Source: an uncultured bacterium (GTDB taxonomy: Bacteria > Cyanobacteriota > Vampirovibrionia > Gastranaerophilales > Gastranaerophilaceae). Taken from it: DNA of 64,000 nt. Shown piece after piece: positions 1,799 through 51,363 of the stretch. The translations under genes and the position numbers were made by a program. The notes under the pieces were generated by a model. It saw nothing but the letters and a program-made list of their open reading frames with translations. It did no database searches and was not told where the DNA came from. The stretch covers positions 1-64,000 of the forward strand of contig CASELF010000063.1 of the NCBI GenBank assembly GCA_949288725.1, given 5' to 3'. Position 1 is the first letter of the stretch; each line of letters opens with the position of its first letter.

Positions 1799-3712
1799 GT
1801 GAGTATTAACGGAGTAAACTCAAATGTAGATATTCAAAAACTTTTGAAGACTATGAAGAATGGTCAAGCAAAGAAAGGCGGCTTGTCTTCAAAAGTTCCT
1901 GCTCATATGACTATGAACGGGTCTATATTTAGTGCAAACGCTAAAACTATAAGTTCTTCATCTTCTACAAATACAACTAACAGAACAAATAATGGTACTC
2001 CTCTAAATCAAACATCTACTACTGATAATGTTTTGAAAATGAATACAGAAAAATCTGTATCAAAAACATCAGGAACAAATTCAGCAACAAGAACTCTATC
2101 AGCTTCAAAAGCAAGTGAAACTTCAAAAACTGATGGAACCTCTCAAACCAAAGCATCTTCTCAGACAAGAGAATCTGCTGAATCTGAACAAAAACATATT
2201 GATATAAGTAATTATGATTTTGATAATTTAACAGGTTGTAGCGCAAGTGAATTGGAAGATTTAAAATCTCAATTAACAGAATTGAAAGATTCTGATGTTC
2301 CAAGATATTTGCAAAACAGTGCAAATAAAAAACTTGATAGAGTTAATTCTGAATTAAACAAAAGAGCAACAGGAACTTCTTCTGGTGCTTCAGAATCACA
2401 AGGGGCTAACGGTACAAATTCAACAAATAATAATCAAGATGTAAGTTTATCTTCAGGTTCTGAAGCACAATCATCTGCAGAAAGTAGTGAAACAGATTCA
2501 AAATCTGCAACAGCAAAATCAGAAGCTGGAACTACACAAATGAATCAATCTGCATCAGAAATGAAATCATTAGATAAAAAAATGAAAACTGATGATAAGA
2601 AATTTCAAAAGCAGATGAAAGCAGAAGAAAAGGCTATTCAAAAATCTCAAAAAGAGATGCAAAAAGAGGCTGTTAAATTAGAAAAATTATCAGCTGAAGT
2701 TGAAAAAATAAATTCTGAAACAGAACAACAAAATGCAATTTTAGCATCAGATAGTGCATCAGATGAAGATAAAGAAGTTGCACAGGGCAAAGTAACTACA
2801 AATACTACTAAATTGCAAGAAACTCAAACTGAGATTGGAACATCTCAAGTTGCAATGAAAAAAGTTCAAGTTGCAACAAATAAAAAGGTAAGAACTCTTA
2901 CAAGAACAGCAAAAACTTATCAAAAGACAGCTGTTGCAAATCAAAAAGCAGTTAATGTGCAACAAACTGAATCAAATAAAGTTTTAGAAATTGCCAATAA
3001 AGCAGATGAAATTGCCGGCTATACACAAATGGCAGGTCAAACAACTCAATATGTTGGAAAAGGTATGATTGCTGTTGGGCAGGCTCTTGCTTCAAATCCA
3101 TATACTGTTGCAGCAGGTCAAGCCTTAATTACTTCAGGTGGTACTGTTGAAAAAGTTGGTATCGGCGTTGAAACTGTTGGTAATTATGGTAAATGCGCAG
3201 CAAGTGTTACAAAAACTGCGGTTTATGCTGCTCAAGGTAATATTGCCGGTGCATTAACATCAGCCGGTGCTGCTGTTATGTCTGGTGCATCTGCAGTTAA
3301 GGGTACAAAAGAAATGACCAGTGGTTTTAAGGGTGTAAATCAAGAAGTTGCTAATGCCTCTCAAAAAGCAGAAAATAGTTTGAATGCAAAAATTGAAGCA
3401 GGTAAATATACCGGTGCAAAGGCAGATAAAGCAACTGAAGCAGCAGGTAAGTTGCAAGACACAACTGCTAAATATAGTGAAAAAGCAGGATCTACTCTAG
3501 CAGAAACTCAAGCTGCTGTTGATGGTGCCGGAGCTGCAGGCGGCAAATCTTTTGCTGTAAATTCTAAAAATATAATGCAATTTGGCGGATTCTTACAATC
3601 TGCAGGTTCTCAACTTGCTGCTATGAATAAGCAAAATCAAACAACTCCAACTTCAGTTGCAACTTCTTATTCTTATCGCAGACCTGGTGCTGTTGTTAGA
3701 GCAAGAGTATAG
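1799..3712 (+). CDS. Ser/Thr/Gln-rich orphan with coiled coil and Ala/Gly hydrophobic region
   Basis: I do not recognise this 637-aa protein. The start is GTG at 1799 with GGAGAG 8 nt upstream. There is no signal peptide. Residues 30-250 are low-complexity and rich in Ser, Thr, Asn and Gln. Residues ~250-390 are a Lys/Glu/Gln-rich coiled coil. Residues ~405-507 are small, hydrophobic and Gly/Ala-rich (GKGMIAVGQALASNPYTVAAG), and the tail is Ala-rich, ending in YRRPGAVVRARV. Coiled coil followed by a hydrophobic stretch recalls secreted pore or translocator proteins, but that is only an analogy. It could also be a structural or surface protein. Its stop is 2 bp from the stop of the convergent gene at 3715. 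Confidence 0.8.
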   Translation: MSINGVNSNVDIQKLLKTMKNGQAKKGGLSSKVPAHMTMNGSIFSANAKTISSSSSTNTTNRTNNGTPLNQTSTTDNVLKMNTEKSVSKTSGTNSATRTLSASKASETSKTDGTSQTKASSQTRESAESEQKHIDISNYDFDNLTGCSASELEDLKSQLTELKDSDVPRYLQNSANKKLDRVNSELNKRATGTSSGASESQGANGTNSTNNNQDVSLSSGSEAQSSAESSETDSKSATAKSEAGTTQMNQSASEMKSLDKKMKTDDKKFQKQMKAEEKAIQKSQKEMQKEAVKLEKLSAEVEKINSETEQQNAILASDSASDEDKEVAQGKVTTNTTKLQETQTEIGTSQVAMKKVQVATNKKVRTLTRTAKTYQKTAVANQKAVNVQQTESNKVLEIANKADEIAGYTQMAGQTTQYVGKGMIAVGQALASNPYTVAAGQALITSGGTVEKVGIGVETVGNYGKCAASVTKTAVYAAQGNIAGALTSAGAAVMSGASAVKGTKEMTSGFKGVNQEVANASQKAENSLNAKIEAGKYTGAKADKATEAAGKLQDTTAKYSEKAGSTLAETQAAVDGAGAAGGKSFAVNSKNIMQFGGFLQSAGSQLAAMNKQNQTTPTSVATSYSYRRPGAVVRARV

Positions 3713-4547: not shown

Positions 4548-5750
4548 ATGAAAAAATCAATTAAAGACCTTGGTGATGTCAAGGGTAAAAGAGCGTTAGT
4601 CAGAGTCGATATCAACGTTCCTCTTGATGAAAACAAAAATGTAACAGATGATACCAGAATTCAAGCAATTTTACCTACTGTAAAATTCTTAAAAGATAAA
4701 GGTGCAAAAATTATTTTGATGGCTCACTTAGGCAGACCAAAAGGTGAATGGAATATGGATTTTTCACTTGCTCCTGTTGCTAAATACTTATCTAAAGTGT
4801 TGGGAGAAGATGTTAAATTCGTTTCAACTCCTGTAGGTCAAGGTGCAGAAAAAGAATTAGCAGATTTAAAGGATGGTCAAGTTGCTTTGTTGGAAAATAT
4901 CAGATTTTATAAAGCAGAAGAAGCAAAAGATGATGATATGACCTTTGCAAATGAACTTGCTAAATTAGGCGATTTCTATGTTAACGATGCATTTGGTGCT
5001 GCTCACAGAAATCATACATCAACTGCTAAACTTGCAAAAGTTTTAAAACCTGCAGTTTCAGGCTTATTGATGGAAAAAGAATTAAGATGCTTATCTCAAG
5101 CTCTTGATAATCCAACAAGACCATTTACTGCTGTTGTTGGTGGTGCTAAAGTTTCTTCTAAAATTGGTGTATTAGAAAACTTAATCGATAAAGTTGATAA
5201 CTTAATTATCGGTGGTGGTATGGCTTATACATTTGTAAAAGCAAATGGCGGGAAAATAGGTAACTCTATTTGTGAAGATGATCAATTAGATGTTGCAAAA
5301 GCCATTGAAAAGAAAGCCGCTGATAAAGGTGTTAAACTTGTTATGGCAACAGATGTTTTAGTTACTGATGATTTTTCAGGTAATGGAACTAACAAATTCG
5401 TTAAAATTGATGAAATTCCTGACGGATTTGAAGGTGTTGATGCAGGCGAAGAATCAAGAAAAGCATTTGCTGAAGTTTTGAAAAATTCTAAGACAATTTT
5501 GATGAATGGTCCTGTAGGTGCATTCGAAAATCCAAAATTTGCTGAAGGTACAAAGGCTGTTCTTGAAGCAATTGTTGAAGCAACTAAGGCTGGTGCAACT
5601 TCTGTTATTGGTGGTGGTGATTCTGTTTCTGCTGCTAAGAAATTCTTTAAAGCAGAAGATTTCACTCATGTTTCAACCGGTGGCGGTGCTTCTCTAGAAT
5701 TTATCGAAGGTAAAGTTTTACCTGGTGTTGCTGCTCTTGATGAAGCATAA
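4548..5750 (+). CDS. pgk: Phosphoglycerate kinase
   Basis: This glycolytic enzyme transfers phosphate from 1,3-bisphosphoglycerate to ADP. The 400-aa length is typical. Diagnostic segments in order are RVDINVPLD, HLGRPKG, NDAFGAAHRNHTS, GGAKVSSKI, GGGMAYTF, GPVGAFE, the nucleotide-binding GGGDSVSA and the C-terminal HVSTGGGASLEF. AAAGGAGAG precedes the ATG. It is monocistronic, ending at a strong terminator, and is not next to gap or tpi, the usual neighbours in many bacteria. Confidence 0.97.
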   Translation: MKKSIKDLGDVKGKRALVRVDINVPLDENKNVTDDTRIQAILPTVKFLKDKGAKIILMAHLGRPKGEWNMDFSLAPVAKYLSKVLGEDVKFVSTPVGQGAEKELADLKDGQVALLENIRFYKAEEAKDDDMTFANELAKLGDFYVNDAFGAAHRNHTSTAKLAKVLKPAVSGLLMEKELRCLSQALDNPTRPFTAVVGGAKVSSKIGVLENLIDKVDNLIIGGGMAYTFVKANGGKIGNSICEDDQLDVAKAIEKKAADKGVKLVMATDVLVTDDFSGNGTNKFVKIDEIPDGFEGVDAGEESRKAFAEVLKNSKTILMNGPVGAFENPKFAEGTKAVLEAIVEATKAGATSVIGGGDSVSAAKKFFKAEDFTHVSTGGGASLEFIEGKVLPGVAALDEA

Positions 5751-8861: not shown

Positions 8862-9614
8862 TTACGCAAGATAACTTTTTACATTCTTTGAATATACTTC
8901 TCTAACTTGAGATGCCCAACTTGCATCACAGTAGTGTCTGCCTATTGCATCAAGGTTGTTAAAATCTACGGCTTTTACGTCTGAATATTTTTGCGGATAT
9001 TTTGCAAGGTTTGCTATCATTGCTTCAAGTCCTTTTTCTATCGTTGAAAAATATCCAAAACCTTTTTCATTTGCACCCAAATCTCCGGCTTTTCTTACTC
9101 CGCCAAAGTTGTTGTGCATTGCAAGGTTACTTGTACCCCAACCGGATTCTAAACCTATTATTGCCGCAACAAGTCCCGGATTTACACCGTATTTTCTGCA
9201 TAATCTTGTAACTAGCGCTTCTTGTCCTGCCAATCTTCCTTTAAATAGTCCCGGTTTTAAGTCTGAATCATCTAGGGTCATATTGAATGAAGATGATTGG
9301 TTTGTTAGATTTGTTGTCGTAACACTATTATTTGTTGTATTAAATAAGTTTGTATTAAACAAATTTGTATTATATATATTAGAATTATATGTTTGATTAG
9401 ATGCCGCTGCGTTTTGCATTGCAATTTTGGATTGTTCTTGAAGTTGCTTTAAAGCATTATACATTTTTTTGTAATTTGCTGCCATCGCACTTGCTTGAAT
9501 TTGCATGTTTGCTATAAATGGATTTGCATTACTCATGCTGGCAATGTTCACCCCACTGCCCATAAAATTAGGATTTATTGTTCTATTCATCATATAGGTA
9601 GTATCAATAGTCAT
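8862..9614 (-). CDS. GH73-like N-acetylglucosaminidase domain protein, no signal peptide
   Basis: Residues ~125-250 resemble the glucosaminidase (GH73) family that cuts peptidoglycan glycan chains. Supporting features are AAIIGLESGWGTS with candidate catalytic Glu156, NNFGGV, a YFSTIEKGLEAMI segment and YCDASWASQVREVY near the end. The N terminus has no Sec signal: MTIDTTYMMNRTINPNFMG, then a helical Ala/Gln region (40-72) and an Asn/Thr linker with NTNLF repeated twice (82-91). A murein hydrolase must reach the periplasm, so another export route or a phage-like release is implied. NFMG at 16-19 fits the motif shared by other orphans here. Confidence 0.75.
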   Translation of the reverse strand: MTIDTTYMMNRTINPNFMGSGVNIASMSNANPFIANMQIQASAMAANYKKMYNALKQLQEQSKIAMQNAAASNQTYNSNIYNTNLFNTNLFNTTNNSVTTTNLTNQSSSFNMTLDDSDLKPGLFKGRLAGQEALVTRLCRKYGVNPGLVAAIIGLESGWGTSNLAMHNNFGGVRKAGDLGANEKGFGYFSTIEKGLEAMIANLAKYPQKYSDVKAVDFNNLDAIGRHYCDASWASQVREVYSKNVKSYLA

Positions 9615-9628
9615 CTCTTTATATTCCC

Positions 9629-9645
9629 CTTATATATATAAAGTA
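9629..9645 (-). promoter_or_regulatory. TACTTTATATATATAAG upstream element
   Basis: This 17-base AT-rich box ends 14 nt before the ATG of the GH73-like gene. Its last 14 bases are identical to the element at 1756-1769. TTAACA lies farther upstream at 9696-9691. A -10-like role is inferred from recurrence. Confidence 0.4.
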
Positions 9646-9769
9646 GTTTTTTTGAGTTAAATTGCATATTTTTGGGGCTATGTAAACAATTGTTAATTTT
9701 TTTTTTGTAACGAAATAGTGAAACCTGTGTGTTTATTATATGATAAAGGAAAGGATGAGAAGTTAGGAA

Positions 9770-51007: not shown

Positions 51008-51259
51008 CTATTGATTTACAACAACTTTTGATACAAAATTTACTGCTTCAAAGAATGTGTCTTTTACAAATTCTTTTGCTAATACTTTTAGTGGTCGATT
51101 TTCTATACAATCAAATACAAAGTATATTGGGTCTTGTGAATTATTAAATCTCATTCGTTTATCTTTTAATTTTAAATAATCTATTTCTTTTGGAAGAGTT
51201 GCTCGACGTCCTCTTCTTTTTGTTATTGATCCAAATGTTTGTCCTGATGTTGAAATCAT
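51008..51259 (-). CDS. Small orphan protein with TFGS motif
   Basis: The 83-aa protein starts MISTSGQTFGSITKRRGRRATL with a basic stretch, then a beta-like DPIYFVFDCIE and a helix (VLAKEFVKDTFFEAVNFVSKVV). There is no signal peptide. The N terminus fits the F-x-G/S pattern of other orphans here. AAGAGAGAG precedes the ATG, and a TACTTTATATATATGTAAG element lies upstream. Confidence 0.65.
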   Translation of the reverse strand: MISTSGQTFGSITKRRGRRATLPKEIDYLKLKDKRMRFNNSQDPIYFVFDCIENRPLKVLAKEFVKDTFFEAVNFVSKVVVNQ

Positions 51260-51284: not shown

Positions 51285-51303
51285 CTTACATATATATAAA
51301 GTA
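51285..51303 (-). promoter_or_regulatory. TACTTTATATATATGTAAG upstream element
   Basis: Its first 17 bases match 11541-11557. It ends 25 nt before the ATG at 51259. TTAACA is at 51356-51351 on the same strand. Confidence 0.4.
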
Positions 51304-51363
51304 TTTATCGCTAAAAAAATTGCTTTTTTAGTGTTTGTAATATGAAGAAATGTTAACGAGAAA

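Follow-up and report, generated by a model that had tools for sequence, protein, structure and literature searches.

A signal-less GH73-type hydrolase behind an order-wide promoter-like element in Gastranaerophilales, with a second flagellum-type gene set as candidate export route

Gastranaerophilales are gut-dwelling, non-photosynthetic relatives of cyanobacteria. We report here that a gene on a 64,000-nucleotide stretch from an uncultured member of this order (hereafter the window, referring to the whole stretch) almost certainly encodes a GH73 protein devoid of an export signal, and that it lies downstream of a promoter-like element, GCAATT-N17-TTTATA, which we are highly confident is a real and conserved class of sites throughout the order. 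In the genome of the window, the element precedes a set of about 25–30 genes, several of whose products look wall-active or wall-binding, as judged from sequence. Relatives of the window's host harbor a second flagellum-type gene set that has no filament and stands apart from the true flagellar genes. That such a machine exports the products of the element-preceded genes, including the hydrolase, which would then open peptidoglycan, is the reading that we favour, tentatively, as possible rather than probable.

In the open-licence literature we found no account that brings together an order-wide element, wall-type proteins lacking Sec signals and a second machine without filament. If true, common and little-cultured gut bacteria would possess an unrecognised export route, the cargo list of which could be read from a promoter pattern that is scannable in any genome of the order. 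The “incomplete flagella” would then be a working device and not a product of decay, and the system would offer a direct test of how signal-less enzymes reach the wall.

Results

A GH73-type domain without an export signal

The hydrolase gene (8862..9614, minus strand) encodes 250 aa from an ATG start preceded by GGGG...AAAGAG. The Pfam Glucosaminidase model PF01832 matches residues 135–243 with 42.4 bits for a cut-off of 30.2, while the NCBIfam models (Bax, MltB-type and similar) gave only matches far below cut-off. From a 16-row domain alignment, the conserved catalytic domain spans residues 118–250 (8865..9263, minus strand), from DLKPGLFKG to the C-terminal YLA. It contains the putative catalytic Glu156 in the motif ESGWG (codon at 9147..9149, minus strand), which is invariant in 16/16 aligned orthologue domains and aligns with LESNWG of Listeria Auto (3fi7). 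The 16-row sets used throughout hold 16 of the 17 orthologues; the remaining one (L009; G045:C119:3466-3981) has an in-frame stop and is either a pseudogene or an assembly error.

Among solved structures, Listeria Auto (3fi7) and a Clostridioides endolysin (8yxk, glucosaminidase domain) come nearest, with ~25–27 bits in profile searches. An AlphaFold2 model built from five sequences is poor (mean pLDDT 48.6), and its best four Foldseek matches in the PDB (Auto, the Clostridioides endolysin, FlgJ 5dn5 and a Thermotoga endo-N-acetylglucosaminidase; E 0.12–0.56) are therefore a hint only. The domain matches place the protein in the GH73 endo-N-acetylglucosaminidase family, of which it is a new member, with murein as the predicted substrate.

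No hydrophobic Sec-like core was found in the first 35 residues by a crude hydrophobicity rule, which is not SignalP (best 10-residue mean Kyte–Doolittle value 0.93). Between an in-frame TAA and the ATG lie five codons, none of which is a start, and an alternative upstream start that would hide a signal peptide is therefore excluded. The first-pass annotation of this DNA, which had read from the letters a GH73-like domain with an apparent catalytic Glu behind an N-terminus without Sec or Tat signal, is thus borne out, and the finding that it named as refuting this reading, a signal peptide at an alternative upstream start, is excluded. The N-terminal region, residues 1–117 (9264..9614, minus strand), is modeled with low confidence, with a helix at ~32–72, and is unrelated in most orthologues.

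Conserved catalytic domains behind changing N-termini

Used as a protein query, the hydrolase matches 19 of 98 relatives at E up to 1e-6, and a relative with 69% identity over the best segment is found on a contig named “Candidatus Gastranaerophilales bacterium”. A catalytic-domain profile finds matches in 23 of the 98: 17 of them exceed 230 bits, and the remainder reach 46.4 bits at most; the profile was built from 16 of the 17 orthologues, and those 16 matches are thus obtained by construction. All 17 belong to the same genus, where they represent 17 of the 46 genomes. At 13 of the 17 loci, at least one of the markers MinC, MinD, nudix and SecG is present (gene names assigned by eye), most of the 17 being therefore true orthologues. 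The loci surveyed were 10.5 kb long in G042 and G007 and 2.4–3.8 kb elsewhere, so that neighbours may be missed in the four marker-less ones.

The catalytic domains of 15 orthologues are 59–95% identical to that of the window protein. When the N-termini were compared to the window protein, only two (L003 and L004) outscored every shuffle, and the rest fall into a small number of separate groups (for L015 and L018, the start was picked by hand). In three genomes, the orthologue carries an N-terminal region of ~480 residues with EF-hand-like and coiled-coil-like sequence, as judged by eye. The tripeptide NPF, at residues 31–33 of the window protein (9516..9524, minus strand), is common in these N-termini: it is present within the first 40 residues of 13/16 orthologues, for a mean of 0.5 and a maximum of 5 in 5000 shuffling runs. 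At the other end, 15 of the 16 orthologues terminate in Y-x-A.

Two other N-terminal features noted by the first-pass annotation were rejected as signals. The NTNLF repeat is indeed present, twice, at residues 82–91 (9342..9371, minus strand), but it is confined to one species of the 16 and is not a conserved signal. Membership of an F-x-G set did not hold up, as the motif is neither enriched at N-termini (4 of 122 ORFs at residues 5–32, versus 12 and 10 in the next two residue intervals) nor fixed in place: some F-x-G is found in the first 40 residues of 6/16 orthologues, and the other five never have it at position 17 as in the window protein.

An order-wide GCAATT-N17-TTTATA element

Upstream of the hydrolase gene, genome scans and orthologue upstream regions revealed a GCAATT (9660..9665, minus strand), with an inferred -35-like role, separated by 17 bp from a TTTATA (9637..9642, minus strand), with an inferred -10-like role. 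The latter corresponds to the first six bases of a 14-mer, TTTATATATATAAG (9629-9642), that the first-pass annotation had described as shared with a 637-aa orphan. The 14-mer was confirmed, with exactly two copies in the window, and forms the -10 part of the longer element; the copy before the orphan has no GCAATT at 17 bp and is a half match only. The orphan itself (1799-3712) has no Pfam match and displays, by eye, a Ser/Thr/Asn-rich start with coiled-coil-like and hydrophobic stretches.

Of the 14 genomes in which at least 99 nt of sequence precede the orthologue, 11 carry the exact element there, one has a one-mismatch copy and two have no copy; three further orthologue loci are too short upstream to be judged. 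No exact copy arose in 300 shuffles of one orthologue upstream region. In whole-genome scans, we observed 34 sites in the window's own genome (none with the reversed-pattern control) and 32 in that of a sister species (control 1). Of these 34 sites, 26 pair with an exact site before orthologous DNA in the sister species, many of these pairs differing in their spacer. Elsewhere in the order, 13 more genomes harbor 13–39 sites each (controls 0–3), the element being present in 15/15 Gastranaerophilales genomes examined, and 17 genomes of the class outside the order harbor 0–6 (controls 0–2). A sequence logo drawn from 31 of the 34 sites, omitting three without a plausible gene (L094, L111 and L123), reaches to about GCAATTTT...AATACTTTATATAWATGTAAGG. 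The window contains a second site (51295..51323, minus strand), for which no paired site was found in the sister species; it is followed by an 83-aa ORF of no assigned function (51008..51259, minus strand).

The form, spacing and place of these sites suggest that the element would be a promoter in use. Its reading as a flagellar late-gene promoter was rejected, with the exact site in 0/19 flagellin upstream regions of flagellated relatives; three further flagellin loci (L041–L043) had no copy of the narrower ACTTTATA form with up to two mismatches. A variant of the site, ending in TGTTTTTATA instead of ATACTTTATA, was seen among the matches listed in G050, G055, G061, G064 and others, and may correspond to a different promoter class.

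Wall-type proteins without Sec-like N-termini behind the element

Both GH73 matches of the window's genome carry the element upstream, the second product scoring 31.2 bits in one search (above the cut-off) and 28.3 bits in another (just below). A CHAP product behind the element scores 26.0 bits, exactly its cut-off. Two LysM products, of 534 and 450 aa, are also preceded by it, the site of the second one (L121) having no partner in the sister species. All four of these products lack Sec-like N-termini by the crude rule. A GH73 enzyme without Sec- or Tat-like signal needs another route, as the first-pass annotation had pointed out for the hydrolase alone, and these four proteins under the same element support and extend that argument: a LysM or GH73 protein without signal would seem of little use in the cytoplasm, where peptidoglycan is absent.

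Many of the other products are short proteins. A Sec-like N-terminus was found in 1 of 25 scored products and in 26 of the 121 ORFs that served as background (Fisher p 0.047), the rule being one of crude hydrophobicity and the background made of uncurated longest-ORF picks; the sole Sec-like product, L108, has a GTTTTTATA site. These 25 were scored out of the 34 sites, eight having no ORF of at least 50 aa within 100 nt or being removed by hand, and the 83-aa ORF of the window was not included. Compared with the background, the N-termini of the products hold more N, S, T, P, Q and G (0.424 versus 0.307; a difference reached in 0/5000 shuffles) and fewer D, E, K and R (0.190 versus 0.250; p 0.035), in a comparison of 20 products of at least 70 aa, L108 excluded, to 95 background proteins. 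With about two dozen mostly untagged proteins behind one element, an exit by a little-studied route is suggested.

Three additional observations concern these products. The N-terminus of the signal-less CHAP protein (L002:1225-2106, L022:1222-2067) bears a weak resemblance to the N-terminus of the hydrolase (E 8.5e-4). A 280-aa protein without signal (L112; G000:C56, site 5009-5037) has a weak match to Porin_3, of the eukaryotic VDAC type, at 18.3 bits, below cut-off. Lastly, a C-terminal Ala (YLA, FTA, PVA, TLA, etc.), counted post hoc, ends 9/26 products in the window's genome and 9/24 in the sister species versus 14/195 background ORFs; such an end might act as a degron or as a tail for export.

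A second flagellum-type export gene set

No flagellin match was obtained in the window's genome, and a single one was obtained among the 46 genomes of the genus; the contig that bears it is 3.1 kb long, and its bin is 6% contaminated. The window's genome nevertheless keeps flagellum-type export genes: FliE, FliF, FliH, FlhA, FliMN_C, FliO, FliP, FliQ, FliR and two FlgE/F/G-type proteins, together with two Flg_bb_rod matches among the matches listed (FlgB and FlgC being named by eye) and a FliG-like ORF that the Pfam flagellar models do not recognise. No FlhB of this machine was recognised by eye; FliI-like ORFs were seen by eye in other genomes. FlhA-type matches are found in 94 of 98 relatives and FliP in 55 of 59, and all 46 genomes of the genus have an FlhA match, weak in G027 and G035.

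A tree of 29 FlhA proteins, picked by profile score and midpoint-rooted with a long-branch warning, resolves two clades (support 100/100), one of 13 proteins with high flagellar-profile scores and one of 16 proteins of the kind present in the window's genome. Both kinds, plus flagellin, are present in nine genomes (G050, G052, G055, G061, G063, G066, G068, G069 and G073). From the separate clade and this coexistence it follows that the second kind is not a simple flagellar remnant. In G063, G068 and G069, it belongs to a run flgF-flgG-flgB-flgC-(~200-aa ORF)-fliE-fliF-fliG-like-fliH-flhA, named by BLAST to the proteins of the window's genome, which in G068 adjoins a separate flagellar run, fliP-fliQ-fliR-(flhB-like)-flhA, where flhB was named by eye. 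This second operon beside true flagellar genes of flagellated Gastranaerophilales is complete at L184:1597-10225, L187:8979-17621 and L189:2019-11369, and extends from fliE on at L188:4581-10567; in the window's genome, which has no flagellin match, its genes lie on contigs C102 and C7. The run is partial in G050 and G051, and in G085, outside the order, flhA is found without any of the neighbours of the second-kind run. FliE and rod-type proteins are present in this second machine; passages of PMC3459982 count them as flagellar.

A FliA-like sigma gene adjoins flhA in the window's genome and in its sister species, and is a possible regulator of the element in this genus; no match to it was found in ~19-kb stretches around flhA of six other genomes. 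Directly beside fliE at one locus (L036:4192-11421), we observed by eye genes for a type I-like ABC transporter, an HlyD-like and a TolC-like protein, together with an RTX-like repeat protein.

Discussion

The hydrolase would act outside the cytoplasm without Sec or Tat, as one product of the 25–30-gene set under the dedicated promoter-like element. We propose the second type III machine as its most likely exit: its polar, charge-poor and fast-changing N-terminus may serve as the export signal, and its conserved C-terminal domain may open the peptidoglycan of the cell itself around this machine, as FlgJ does for the rod, or that of a neighbour; passages of PMC8517470 describe FlgJ as making the hole for the flagellar rod. 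This supposes that the machine, most of whose genes are present, is complete and working and that the hydrolase leaves by it. The N-terminus resembles that of a type III substrate in having no cleavable Sec signal (crude rule), and in being polar and poorly ordered (low-confidence model), while the co-regulation or linkage with apparatus genes that is frequent, though not strict, for such substrates was not seen.

Several observations speak against export by the second machine. The hydrolase gene is not linked to the export genes and lies instead with the MinC/MinD/nudix/SecG markers; in the window's genome and its sister species, the stretches read around the export genes contain no exact element site; the flagellins are devoid of the element; and the sigma gene beside flhA is unmatched in the six other genomes. 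One genome, G035, has the hydrolase and 35 sites, yet its best FlhA match among those listed is at 2.8e-48, from a broken assembly or from loss. Moreover, as the hydrolase is present in only 17 of the 46 genomes of the genus, the machine does not need it, and as FlhA of the machine's kind occurs almost throughout the order and also outside it, where the element is at noise level, co-occurrence of the two is not discriminating. A broader version of the proposal, in which the order-wide regulon would be the cargo of an ancient second type III machine without filament, the hydrolase a warhead or drill on interchangeable, mostly NPF-bearing address regions, and part of the cargo would share the C-terminal Ala tail, appears doubtful to us.

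Among the other ways in which a signal-less wall enzyme might reach its substrate, we consider release by lysis unlikely. The enzymes would be stored in the cytoplasm and freed like endolysins when a subpopulation lyses, by way of a prophage, a tailocin, a gene-transfer agent or programmed autolysis. Phage endolysins of GH73 type share with the hydrolase a domain without signal, two PHROG endolysin families match it (34.3 and 30.2 bits), and a second GH73, a CHAP and LysM proteins under one element would suit a lysis programme. However, the hydrolase occupies an orthologous chromosomal place by the min genes (the same neighbours at 13/17 loci), none of 57 viral-contig pattern matches encodes a relative of it, the five phage records that match are all below 60% identity with none covering 80% of the query, nine other products of the element are unmatched in PHROGs, and no holin was recognised by eye. 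With no viral-contig relative, only these five weak phage records and no close relative in the phage collections searched, a phage origin of the hydrolase was rejected. In plasmids, 29 records matched, none reaching 60% identity; wall enzymes of Gram-positive bacteria make up most of those listed.

About equally improbable, in our estimate, is exit through a Sec-independent system of another kind, whether type I, IV, VI, VII or one not yet described. The type I-like transporter genes and the repeat-rich protein beside the export operon would provide such a system, and the Ala C-terminus of the products (post hoc) or the Y-x-A end of the orthologues could be its C-terminal export tail; RTX-type repeats were not seen by eye in the hydrolase itself. 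A type IV system is proposed for the relative Vampirovibrio in passages of PMC4451040. The dedicated promoter-like element, the many small proteins and the LysM and lytic proteins without signal also resemble a late sigma regulon, with the hydrolase staying cytoplasmic or acting in a mother-cell-like compartment during differentiation. Endospore-coat LysM and lytic proteins do act without signal peptides; we know of no spores in the order Gastranaerophilales, and we regard this explanation as very unlikely.

Equally remote, and already weakened, is the view that the hydrolase is simply a rod enzyme of the FlgJ type whose rod-capping half disappeared along with the filament genes. FlgJ has no Sec signal, and flgJ is customarily, not strictly, found among rod and basal-body genes. 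Like the hydrolase, FlgJ has a GH73-type domain, described in passages of PMC8517470 as the enzyme of the flagellar rod; the host of the hydrolase also has flagellum-type export genes, and FlgJ 5dn5 figures among the top fold matches of the poor model. In contrast to FlgJ, the hydrolase is without the rod-capping N-terminal domain (Pfam, E up to 1) and has an unrelated N-terminus. Its gene does not lie beside rod genes, is patchy in the genus, being absent from 29/46 genomes despite FlhA matches in all 46 (weak in G027 and G035), and shares its upstream element with the CHAP and LysM genes. Another known enzyme, Listeria Auto (Lmo1076), has the same Pfam-level domain and the aligned ExxWG motif, and is the best fold match of the poor model; the similarity amounts to ~26 bits only, and Auto, unlike the hydrolase, carries a signal peptide and is exported as an autolysin.

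For the export genes themselves, the non-flagellated Lysobacter enzymogenes offers a parallel, as it has, like the window's genome, an export core without filament, and passages of PMC9927559 describe its retained flagellar system as secreting FlgD. The FlhA of the window's genome, in contrast, is of a kind that forms a clade apart from the flagellar one, and both kinds coexist in nine flagellated relatives. The incomplete flagella of gut Melainabacteria are likewise partial gene sets without filament, and are read as flagellum reduction or loss in passages of Di Rienzi 2013 and Soo 2014 (PMC3787301, PMC4040986), whereas our analysis points to two parallel machines: the “incomplete flagellum” looks like the second machine, there all along beside the flagellum. 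Di Rienzi 2013 (PMC3787301) lists two flhA genes for ACD20 in one such passage. We also note a 494-aa protein in the window's genome (L040:1072-2556; contig C75) that matches only the C-terminal part of FHIPEP (314-652), resembling a soluble C-terminal part of FlhA; a frame of this FlhA-C-like type, ~495 aa long, is found in many relatives among the matches listed.
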